57,961 nucleotides of DNA from Patescibacteria group bacterium. GTDB lineage: Bacteria > Patescibacteriota > Patescibacteriia > 2-12-FULL-60-25. Shown piece by piece: positions 10,421 to 19,508 of this stretch. The number at the start of each line of letters is the position of its first letter. Position 1 is the stretch's first letter. The notes beneath the pieces were generated by a model that was not told where the DNA came from, made no database searches, and worked only from the letters and a program-made list of their open reading frames with translations. The position numbers were made by a program, and so were the translations under genes. The stretch spans positions 1 to 57,961 of the forward strand of contig JAGOTP010000005.1 of assembly GCA_018061755.1 (NCBI GenBank), given 5' to 3'.

Positions 10421-11041
10421 CTACGCTTGAGGCAGGGTGCTGTCGAGAGAATCGGGAGCGGTGGTTTTAGCTTTCGTCAATTGTTCTTGAACGAGACCGA
10501 GCAATGCGTCTTTGCCGGTTCCGGTACGAGCGGAGAAAAAGACGGCCGAAGCGTTCACGCCTTGGCGGATGAGTGCATGTTGCAATTGAGCCTTTTCAGA
10601 TTGTGATAATTTGTCCGCTTTATTGATTACGAGTATCCAAGGGAGTTTCTGCTCTTGCAAGAACAGGGCCATTTCCTGATCGAGCGGAGAAGACAGACCG
10701 ACGGCTGCGTCGATGACGAGCAAAATTAACGTTGGTGGCATGAGCAACGTGTCGTAGATCATCTGTTCCAGTTCTTCCCGTTCTTTTTTAGATTGTTTGG
10801 CGTAGCCGTAACCAGGCAAATCAAGTAAGGAAAAAGCCTTGCCAAAGGTGTAGCGGTTAATGAGACGAGTACGTCCTGGCGTGTTACTCGTTCGAGCCAG
10901 ATCTTTTTGGCCGCCCAAACGGTTCACCAAACTGGATTTCCCGACGTTTGATCGGCCAACCAAGGCGATATGTGGCAAACTCGTCGGAAGATCGTGTGGT
11001 TTGGGATAGCTTCGTTCAAAAGCAGCTGGAGTGAGGGACAT
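10421..11041 (-). CDS. engB: Ribosome biogenesis GTPase EngB (YsxC/YihA)
   Basis: GTPase needed for large-subunit assembly. All G motifs are present: G1 GRSNVGKSSLVN (about residues 29-40), G2 region TPGRTRLIN, G3 DLPGYGYAK, G4 NKADKL and G5 SARTGTG. Length 206 residues is typical. It is followed on the same strand by the DUF5671 gene. About 60 bases upstream lies the terminal stem-loop (11105-11153) of the minus-strand GC-rich unit, so read-through from that unit would enter engB. Confidence 0.93.
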   Translation of the reverse strand: MSLTPAAFERSYPKPHDLPTSLPHIALVGRSNVGKSSLVNRLGGQKDLARTSNTPGRTRLINRYTFGKAFSLLDLPGYGYAKQSKKEREELEQMIYDTLLMPPTLILLVIDAAVGLSSPLDQEMALFLQEQKLPWILVINKADKLSQSEKAQLQHALIRQGVNASAVFFSARTGTGKDALLGLVQEQLTKAKTTAPDSLDSTLPQA

Positions 11042-11104
11042 GGGCTTGAGAGTAGCAGATCTACGTAAGAAAGAAAGGAAAAGCTGCGATCACCTAAAAT
11101 TAGT

Positions 11105-11153
11105 TCAAGGGTCGGCCCGACTGCGCGTGAGCGCTAGCCGAGACGACCCTTGA
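11105..11153 (-). terminator. two-tier stem-loop ending GC-rich unit 1
   Basis: TCAAGGGTCG (11105-11114) pairs perfectly with CGACCCTTGA (11144-11153); an inner GCGC-TCAC-GCGC hairpin fills the loop. On the minus strand it is followed by ACTAATTTTAGG, a short U-rich tract like the one after the stem-loop at 19043-19088. Confidence 0.65.
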
Positions 11154-11917
11154 TAATATAGAGGAGATTTCGTCAGTGATATACGTCAATGTGCAATTTA
11201 CGGGACGCGAGCAAGGAGGAACGAGGATCCTGCTTGCAACCCGCCGGCTAACGGTCAGCCGTCCACCTGTGCGCATGGCCGCCCACCCGTAGGGCGCGCG
11301 CGAGGGATGGATGCCTCGGTTGCAACTCTCTGAGATATCCTCTCAGAACTCTCGCTGTCAGTCCGCTGTTGGTAGCGGTGCGAGTCCGGGTCTACGCTCC
11401 GTTGAGTCTTTCACGGCCACCGGTCTGGCCAAGCGTGGCTGCGTGGGCGTTGAGTCCCATCCCCAAGTCATGCCTGGGATAATGGATACGCTCAACGCAC
11501 CTGAGGGCGCCACGACTGTCCGGGTTCATCACTTCCCGCTGCATCTCCGCCTCGTTGGAGTGCAGGTTCCTAGCACGGCCGATCCTTCCACCTGTCTTGA
11601 TGAAATGCCGAAGCGTGAGACAGGACGAGGCGAAACCGCGTTGGGACGCGACTTCTTTGGGCCGGAAAGCCCGCTGTTTCGGTTCGCGATCTACTTGTGA
11701 CCGCGGGTGTCCGAAGTGCCTCTGGGGTGCACACGAATGGGCCCTCATCTCGTGCCACCGTCGCCACTGTGTTTATCGAACGCTCACGATCTTTGCAGGG
11801 TTGGTCCTAGCGCCGATCGTCCCTGATACCGTTCGCACGAGTGACGTCGCTTGGAGGGGGAGGGGGTGGGCCTAAGTCCTGATGGACCGGCTGGATCCTA
11901 CCGCTCTTCAGCTCGGG
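11105..11917 (-). ncRNA. candidate large structured RNA 1 (about 0.8 kb)
   Basis: GC-rich block with no credible gene: frames on both strands are Arg/Pro/Ser-rich, overlap each other and lack ribosome-binding sites. It has a minus-strand promoter at 11924-11950 and a terminal stem-loop. Local complementarity is frequent: GCGTTGAG (11447-11454) with CTCAACGC (11491-11498), CCTGTCT (11591-11597) with AGACAGG (11618-11624), plus shorter stems such as CTGAG/CTCAG near 11330-11346 and CTCC/GGAG within CTGCA/TGCAG near 11540-11565. I matched it to no family (not rRNA, tmRNA, RNase P or SRP by the motifs I know). Strand is inferred from the promoter. A fast-evolving small-protein mRNA remains possible. 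Confidence 0.5.
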
Positions 11918-11923
11918 AAAGAA

Positions 11924-11950
11924 AGTATAATATTTAAATACGCTTGTCAA
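11924..11950 (-). promoter_or_regulatory. promoter of GC-rich unit 1, minus strand
   Basis: TTGACA (11945-11950 on the minus strand) and TATACT (11924-11929), spacer 15, which is short; a 17-base spacing would give the poorer TACTTT. The -35 box is again CTTGACA and lies in a very AT-rich spacer. Confidence 0.55.
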
Positions 11951-11983
11951 GGGATTGAGTGTGTAAGTCATTTTTGATGAGTG

Positions 11984-12013
11984 TGGAAAATAAAAAAAGC
12001 CTCTTTAAAAGGC
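11984..12013 (-). terminator. strong intrinsic terminator of GC-rich unit 2
   Basis: On the minus strand GCCTTT-TAA-AGAGGC-like hairpin (11999-12013, one G-U pair) followed by TTTTTTTATTTT. A clear factor-independent terminator that separates unit 2 from the promoter of unit 1. Confidence 0.8.
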
Positions 12014-12812
12014 AAAATAATTGATTCCTTATGTCTGTAATGAAAATGGATATTCGTCTAAACGCAATTCGACCCCCGTCCGCGAGTGTTCGCGTGCGGG
12101 GGCCGAGAGGTTGGTACGTTGATAGGGGATGCAAGTGGGGATCCTATCGCCGCTCGGGGCTGCTATCGGGGGGGGGTACGACGCAGCTCCGTAAAAAGGA
12201 CATCCCCAGGATCAAGTTGCAACACGTAACTACGCGTGCGACTTACCAATTGATCCATATCATCCGTCCCTCTTCGATGGCTCGAAGGAGCTCTCTACGC
12301 CGTGACCGTTCTGACGACACGTGCGTAAGCTCTACCCTAGGGGGTCCTTTGGGCCCGAACGAGGTACCCGTTGAAGAACTCAGACGTCTCTGAGCGGAGC
12401 TCCAGTGGGTCAGTCCACCTTCTCTCCTATGTACGTCAGGTTTCACTCACCGGGACGGTTACCCCTGAAGAATGGGGCGGGTGAGAACTAGCCAGTTCGC
12501 TCAGTCATTGGACACCGCCTACCAATGGCGGGCCGTTGATCTGATTGAACTTCCAAGGGTGAATCCTGTATCATCCCTTGATCCGGCGTTGCAGGAGCTA
12601 CCCGCAGAGCCATTGGCGAAGGTACCTTTGAAGGTCGCCTTCTCTATGGAAACGAGCGTTCTTCGTACGCTCGCCTCAGTCCGGGGTGGCGCAGGAACCC
12701 AGGCATGGCGCCTGGTATTTTGTTTGCACCGATGTCCACAGACCGAGTCTAGATTCCCGCACGGCAGTGCCAAGAGCGACAGGTTGCGCTCATGGATCTG
12801 GCCTTAACGGGA
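11999..12812 (-). ncRNA. candidate large structured RNA 2 (about 0.8 kb)
   Basis: Second GC-rich block (39 of 60 bases G+C from 12661) in tandem with unit 1, with its own minus-strand promoter (12819-12847) and terminator. Perfect short hairpins are dense: CGAGCGT/ACGCTCG (12653-12673), CCAGGC/GCCTGG (12699-12715), CATTGG/CCAATG (12506-12527), CAAGGG/CCCTTG (12554-12580) and CTCAG/CTGAG near 12380. A C-run of nine (G on plus) lies near 12169. One minus frame ending near 12243 has a protein-like tail but no good start or ribosome-binding site. I see no extended sequence identity between units 1 and 2. Family unknown. Confidence 0.5.
12073..12102 (-). other. two-tier GC-rich stem-loop near the 3' end of unit 2
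   Basis: CCCCCG (12073-12078) pairs with CGGGGG (12097-12102), and inside CGCGA pairs with TCGCG around a 4-base loop. Same plan as the stem-loops that end the other GC-rich units; here a separate T-tailed terminator follows about 60 bases later. Confidence 0.6.
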
Positions 12813-12818
12813 CGTAGT

Positions 12819-12847
12819 AATCTACTATATTTCTTTATTTCTGTCAA
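12819..12847 (-). promoter_or_regulatory. promoter of GC-rich unit 2, minus strand
   Basis: TTGACA (12842-12847 on the minus strand), 17-base spacer, TAGATT (12819-12824); part of CTTGACA. Start of transcription expected near 12812, at the edge of the GC-rich block. Confidence 0.7.
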
Positions 12848-12950
12848 GCTGCTTGAGGGATGCATAAAAAATTGCTTTATTTTAGGCCAAAAAATGGTTG
12901 CTTCGTGAACTTCGGTTTTCTGCTATACTAAGCCCATCGTTTTTGGTCGT

Positions 12951-13637
12951 ATGATCCTTCTTGAGCACGTTTCCAAGATTTACCCTTCAGGCGATCCTGC
13001 TTTGCAGGATGTGTCTTTGCATATTGAGCCGGGGGAATTCGTCTCGATTGTGGGACAAAGCGGCGCAGGGAAGACGACCTTGGCTAAATTACTGATCGCA
13101 GAAGAGCGGCCTAGTAGCGGGCGAATCATTATCGGTGGCTGGGACATTACGCGTATTAAGCAGCGCGAAGTTCCATATTTGCGTCGTCAGTTGGGAGTGG
13201 TGTTTCAGGACTATAAATTGCTGCGTCAAAAGACAGTGTATGAAAATGTCTCATTTGCCTTGGAGGTAGCTGGGGAATCTGCTTCTCGTATTCGGGAAGT
13301 TGTGCCACAAGTACTAGCCATTGTTGGACTTACCGAAAAGGCTCATCGTTTTCCGACCCAGATTTCGGGTGGAGAGCAGCAACGAGTTGTGATTGCGCGT
13401 TCTTTGGTGCATCGACCAAAAGTGCTCTTAGCTGACGAGCCGACCGGTAACTTGGACACGGTTAATACGCAAGAGATCGTGAACCTGCTGCTTAAGATCA
13501 ATGCTTTTGGTACAACGATCGTTCTCGTGACGCATAATCGTGAAATCGTGAACGCTGTTCGTCGACGGGTTGTAACGTTAAAAGATGGGCGGATAGCCAC
13601 CGACCAGGAGCATGGTAAATATCATCTTCCCGTATGA
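12951..13637 (+). CDS. ftsE: Cell-division ABC transporter ATPase FtsE
   Basis: ATPase partner of FtsX; the complex activates peptidoglycan hydrolases at the septum. Walker A GQSGAGKTTLAK (about residues 36-47), signature ISGGEQQRV, Walker [13 protein letters not shown] and switch His in LVTHNRE are all present. The start of the Q-loop region VVFQDYKLL is the FtsE-typical form. At 228 residues it is of normal length. A -10-like TATACT at 12922-12927 lies upstream of the ATG. The stop overlaps the ftsX start (ATGA), indicating translational coupling. Confidence 0.95.
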   Translation: MILLEHVSKIYPSGDPALQDVSLHIEPGEFVSIVGQSGAGKTTLAKLLIAEERPSSGRIIIGGWDITRIKQREVPYLRRQLGVVFQDYKLLRQKTVYENVSFALEVAGESASRIREVVPQVLAIVGLTEKAHRFPTQISGGEQQRVVIARSLVHRPKVLLADEPTGNLDTVNTQEIVNLLLKINAFGTTIVLVTHNREIVNAVRRRVVTLKDGRIATDQEHGKYHLPV

Positions 13638-18989: not shown

Positions 18990-19042
18990 GTTGGTCTGTG
19001 TCTTCTCAGATGTCGCAAAAGTCACCGTGCTTAAAATTGGGA

Positions 19043-19088
19043 GTACCCGGCGTCGGTTCGCGAGTTGCGCGAACGGACGGCCGGGTAC
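19043..19088 (-). terminator. two-tier GC-rich stem-loop after the GC-rich basic gene
   Basis: GTACCCGGC (19043-19051) pairs with GCCGGGTAC (19080-19088); the inner stem is GTTCGCG with CGCGAAC. On the minus strand it is followed by CCCAATTTTAAG. It ends the unit of the gene at 19110-19454. Confidence 0.65.
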
Positions 19089-19109
19089 GGGGAGGTGGGA
19101 AGAGTCGGG

Positions 19110-19454
19110 TCAGACGCGTACGCGGCTGAGGATGCTCTCGATGCATTGAAGATCCATGTGATCGAGCGCGTGCTTGTTGCGCAGACGCTCGAGCGCGTCG
19201 AACTCGATCGGGCGCATCCAGCTCTGGTACTTCGCGCGTGAGCCGAGCACGACCTGCATCCGCCGGCGGAGGTCGGCGTGCGGATCCGGCGCTACTACCT
19301 CTGGAACGGGGGAGCTCCTCGGGTACTGCTCCCGGTTCGCCTGCTTGCGCTTCCGGGCCTCAGCCAGGCGTGCCTGGTTGCCCTTGAAGGTGGTCTTCGG
19401 TTTCGTCCTCTTCGGGTTCTTGCTCGTCTGATCGGTTTGAGCTGCCTGTCCCAT
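19110..19454 (-). CDS. GC-rich small basic protein, unknown function
   Basis: A 114-residue protein: a Lys/Arg/Gln/Thr-rich, probably disordered first half (MGQAAQTDQTSKNPKRTKPK onward) and a helical second half from ADLRRRMQVVLGSRAKYQSW with SRVRV at the end. The basic half suggests nucleic-acid or ribosome contact, but no family is recognised. It has a good ribosome-binding site (AAAGGAG 8 bases before ATG), its own promoter and a two-tier stem-loop after the stop. GC-rich codons differ from the neighbours, as in the gene at 2131-2712. Confidence 0.7.
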   Translation of the reverse strand: MGQAAQTDQTSKNPKRTKPKTTFKGNQARLAEARKRKQANREQYPRSSPVPEVVAPDPHADLRRRMQVVLGSRAKYQSWMRPIEFDALERLRNKHALDHMDLQCIESILSRVRV

Positions 19455-19478
19455 ATAGGCATCTCCTTTCCGCGCATT

Positions 19479-19507
19479 ATCCTAAGGATTTCTGCTCTAA
19501 AAAGCAA
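19479..19507 (-). promoter_or_regulatory. promoter of the GC-rich basic gene
   Basis: TTGCTT (19502-19507) and TAGGAT (19479-19484) on the minus strand with a 17-base spacer, located directly after the ABC-F stop codon. An AAAGGAG ribosome-binding site (19463-19469) follows. Confidence 0.5.
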
Positions 19508-19508
19508 G

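Follow-up and report, generated by a model that had tools for sequence, protein, structure and literature searches.

A GC-rich non-coding stretch between engB and ftsE as a candidate RNA locus in an Uhrbacterium genome

Introduction

Bacteria rarely have large non-coding RNAs, and for the Candidate Phyla Radiation (CPR) a narrow literature search returned no paper on RNAs of this kind. Among the described systems, OLE, GOLLD, and ROOL are about 0.6-0.8 kb long, lack an open reading frame (ORF), form their own transcription units, and contain many hairpins, and the HEARO / OMEGA RNAs are structured, non-coding, and intergenic. Two tandem blocks in a 57,961-nt stretch of DNA (the window) from an Uhrbacterium genome of 1.15 Mb resemble these systems in such features, with the transcription units and the folded structure being predicted. 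However, they differ from OLE, GOLLD, and ROOL in having no Rfam match, homologues, covariation, known partner gene, or phage or plasmid setting. They also differ from the HEARO / OMEGA RNAs, as they have no Rfam match and are neighbored by engB and ftsE, with no transposon or nuclease gene. An initial annotation of the window had described the blocks as candidate large structured RNAs, and its claims are considered below together with our results.

Results

The GC-rich non-coding stretch extends from 11050 to 12950 (about 1.8-1.9 kb) and is located between engB and ftsE. The engB gene (10421..11041, minus strand), coding for a YihA/YsxC GTPase (TIGR03598), is the next gene downstream of block 1, and ftsE (12951..13637, plus strand; TIGR02673) is a divergent neighbor followed by ftsX. 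The closest relatives of FtsX belong to Candidatus Uhrbacteria (50-52% identity), which bears out the CPR origin suggested in the initial annotation. No congener of the source genome was present among the genomes compared. In the relatives examined, engB and ftsEX were apart and no similar gap was found beside either, so the blocks occupy a lineage-specific junction.

Codon statistics, trained on the long genes of the window, gave negative values in all frames between about 11050 and 12950, and the values became positive again at both neighboring genes. The longest ORFs were 129 aa in block 1 and 111 aa in block 2, compared with averages of 109 and 97 aa in shuffles of the same composition, and these lengths are as in random DNA (p 0.25 and 0.27). 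A Pfam search of the ORFs from both blocks matched no family. These three results agree with the earlier statement that no convincing ORF is present, and neither block contains a conserved or plausible protein frame, as is expected of a large structured RNA.

The GC content of the blocks was 58-60%, against a genome mean of 51% (sd 4%, 800-nt windows), and 58% was reached by only 6% of the 800-nt windows of the genome. The enrichment was thus correctly described, and the 39 G+C bases reported for the row 12661-12720 were also counted here. The dinucleotide signature of the stretch falls inside the host range. Several other GC-rich islands of the same genome were observed to contain small genes for orphan proteins (L144:5506-6211, L155:16363-16962, L164:10293-11014, L123:3274-4134, and L100:9960-10666). 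Some of these genes show atypical codon use and code for a protein with a signal peptide or a membrane segment, and in at least the L144 island a promoter and hairpins resembling terminators are present. Within the window, a GC-rich gap at 18990-19508 (61%) likely encodes, on the minus strand, a basic orphan protein of 114 aa, with a good ribosome-binding site before its gene.

Block 2 is preceded on the minus strand by a promoter sequence at 12819..12847 (TTGACA, 17 nt, TAGATT; 10/12). The sole canonical intrinsic terminator, GCCTTTTAAAGAGGC-TTTTTTT (11999..12013, minus strand), lies about 50 nt beyond block 2. Because of this terminator, unit 2 is predicted to extend from about 12812 to 11993, which is longer than the hairpin-to-promoter block first delineated. 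The predicted non-coding transcript (11993..12812, minus strand) is about 820 nt long, and its GC-rich portion covers 12060-12812. Its best-defined 5' domain (12652..12812, minus strand), the source of covariance model R1, is predicted to comprise three consecutive hairpin domains with 52 pairs, and a GC-rich hairpin with no U-tract after it is located near the 3' end (12066..12106, minus strand).

Block 1 (11105..11917, minus strand) is a GC-rich, non-coding block with no ORF and ordinary folding energy, and it may be a second transcript or a long engB leader. Its promoter-like boxes at 11924..11950 on the minus strand (TTGACA, 15 nt, TATACT) match 11/12 and are poorly spaced. A strong 3' hairpin with 18-nt arms (11105..11153, minus strand), followed by no U-tract, ends 64 nt from the engB start, and the interval from 11182 to engB yielded no good promoter. 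The minus-strand promoters initially assigned to both blocks stand differently: that of block 2 is well spaced (17 nt), whereas the 15-nt spacer of block 1 is sub-optimal. The terminal stem-loops at 12066-12106 and 11105-11153 are indeed strong, but neither is followed by a T run as in a textbook terminator. One block as a duplicate of the other was rejected, as only chance 11-13-mers were common to both.

The four stems quoted in the initial annotation (11447/11491, 11591/11618, 12653/12667, and 12699/12710) are all exact. As for the dense perfect hairpins that it described, counts of stems with 6 bp or more were at the chance level in block 1 (6 vs 7.2 ± 2.6 in shuffles) and in modest excess in block 2 (10 vs 5.8 ± 2.3). 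Compared with shuffles, the fold energy gave z -5.7 for block 2 and -2.7 for block 1, and -5.2 and -1.2, respectively, when the end hairpins were left out. The whole fold of unit 2 (11990-12812) gave z -5.5, and a 216-nt fold at its 5' domain gave -3.84, with the centroid near the MFE. The averages over four 175-nt parts were -2.9 for block 2 and -0.7 for block 1, with 200 GC-matched 175-nt genomic strands as the control (mean z -0.6, sd 1.4). For the 5' half of block 2 (400 nt), the minus strand had z -3.7 and its reverse complement -2.3, and the 3' half had -2.0 on either strand. The halves of block 1 had z -1.0 (reverse complement +0.6) and -1.7 (reverse complement 0.0). In the same genome, the tmRNA gave z -3.5 (reverse complement -2.0) and a 5' 23S fragment gave -2.0 (reverse complement -0.3). 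As a yardstick only, the folds of these RNAs exceed those of shuffles in stability to a similar degree; unlike blocks 1 and 2, they are conserved and recognized by Rfam.

Positional entropy on the minus strand was 0.55 in block 1 (shuffles 1.08 ± 0.28), below 35 of 36 shuffles and a marginal sign of a fairly well-defined fold, and it was moderately low in block 2 (0.72 vs 1.00 ± 0.22). The reverse complements of both blocks were near their own shuffle means, as scored against their own shuffles in one analysis. The absolute fold energies of the blocks are ordinary among GC-matched DNA of the same genome, z averages -2.5 over the non-coding gaps of a related genome, and the GC-rich coding islands of the same genome reach z -5 to -12 with flanking hairpins included. 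From the fold scores and these cautions, block 2 has a fair structural case and block 1 a weak one.

The Rfam cmscan of the whole window at gathering thresholds returned tRNAs only, and that of 10900-13000 up to E 10 returned chance-level matches only. The low scorers, such as mir-2766, SAM, and ffh, were rejected, as they were far under the gathering scores. No match was found to the models of OLE, GOLLD, ROOL, and HEARO, which the initial annotation had cited as known context. The BLASTN check in CPR genomes proposed at the same time was also negative: a blastn-type search found no homologue in 41 genomes of the family, 381 of the class, or 380 of the phylum, with overlap between these sets. 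Likewise, no homologue of the stretch was found in its own genome or by blastn in phages and plasmids, and viral contigs contained none of its exact 18-mers. Among the family blastn matches (E 0.04-1), 29 were inspected and rejected as short and at chance level, nearly all within long open frames, and two class-level matches (E 2e-4), to an AT-rich promoter-like stretch and a terminator, were attributed to chance. The R1 model, covering 161 nt of block 2, retrieved only itself from the class genomes and nothing credible from the family genomes (one match at E 0.92), and it is a weak model built from a single sequence. Since single-sequence models and blastn would miss a fast-evolving RNA in other genera, the absence of relatives there is unproved.

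A further orphan non-coding block of about 400 nt, at L142:2306-2700 on the minus strand (G000 contig C33), was observed in this genome. Its fold is far stronger (z about -10), and its 3' end has an intrinsic-terminator-like hairpin and a T run. Rfam up to E 1 gave a single weak sub-threshold match only, and blastn in the family genomes found no credible relative, the best match being inside a coding gene. It is a better RNA candidate than blocks 1 and 2.

Discussion

Our results suggest, tentatively and with somewhat less than even likelihood, that in this Uhrbacterium block 2 is a gene for a non-coding RNA restricted to its lineage, and that block 1 is a weaker RNA or inert or leader DNA. 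On this reading, the product of block 2 is probably a folded RNA, about 0.8 kb long. Transcription of unit 2 would run along the minus strand from the promoter at 12847-12819 to the terminator at 12013-11999, and the product of about 820 nt would fold as a chain of GC-rich hairpins. The RNA would most likely be stable and untranslated, and its folded form might work as a regulator or scaffold; we infer this transcription, stability, and function from the sequence. Block 1 may be a second, weaker unit of RNA, or spacer and leader DNA without function upstream of engB.

The absence of coding, the promoter with 17-nt spacing, the terminator, and a fold that exceeds shuffles to an extent comparable with the tmRNA of this genome support block 2 as a non-coding transcription unit. 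In addition, the lower positional entropy of the minus strand, with the plus strand near shuffles, favors an RNA on the minus strand. However, the two strands do not differ in stability in the 3' half of block 2, and the z of -2.5 in related-genome gaps and the ordinary absolute energies also argue against an RNA gene. So does the lack of a homologue in the genomes searched, which leaves neither covariation nor purifying selection demonstrable. Of the two tandem non-coding transcripts initially proposed, that of block 2 is supported as a predicted unit, whereas that of block 1, with an energy like that of GC-matched DNA, poor promoter spacing, and an end hairpin with no U-tract, is not established. 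The findings that the initial annotation had named as contrary to it, namely homologues with a conserved protein frame, an adequate alignment with no covariation, or a match to a known mobile element, were not encountered.

Alternatively, it is quite possible, although doubtful, that the whole stretch is non-functional GC-rich DNA, either a decayed gene or a rearrangement scar joining engB and ftsE, in which promoter-like and hairpin sequences are left over by chance or from older genes. This would be consistent with the separation of engB and ftsEX in the relatives examined, where no comparable gap occurs, and with the lack of a relative of the stretch in the genomes searched. The chance-level energy and stem density of block 1 and the dinucleotide signature in the host range fit it as well. 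However, non-coding relics usually drift toward AT, and the stretch is GC-richer than about 94% of genome windows. A scar would also have to account for block 2, which is framed by a well-spaced promoter and a canonical terminator and whose fold exceeds shuffles.

Another explanation, which we consider unlikely, is that block 1 belongs to the engB operon as a very long untranslated leader and is not a separate RNA. Block 1 is on the engB strand, its 3' hairpin is 64 nt from the engB start and lacks a U-tract, and no good promoter follows between 11182 and engB. A leader of 0.8 kb would be unusual, however, the engB genes of relatives have no such gap, and the 3' hairpin could still end transcription.

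The new RNA class or pair proposed initially is to be regarded as no more than a possibility, since no homologue was found in the genomes searched and block 1 is like GC-matched DNA in energy. With no homologue there is no alignment, and hence no covariation support and no RNA class. A reading in which the two blocks would be the first members of a new class of large structured RNAs confined to one Uhrbacteria genus, possibly with a third putative orphan RNA (z about -10) of this genome, is improbable. It is very unlikely that the units code for peptides, very short or leaderless, that are invisible to the codon test. In favor of such peptides, the GC-rich islands that carry small genes for orphan proteins show that atypical coding islands exist in this genome, but the island genes have recognizable ORFs with signal peptides or membrane segments, and the longest ORFs of the blocks equal random expectation and match no family.

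At present, with block 2 as its probable RNA-making part, the stretch is an RNA candidate without comparative support. A non-coding stretch of 1.8 kb is costly in a 1.15-Mb genome. If transcription and conservation in close relatives held, the locus would provide a tractable example of a large non-coding RNA.
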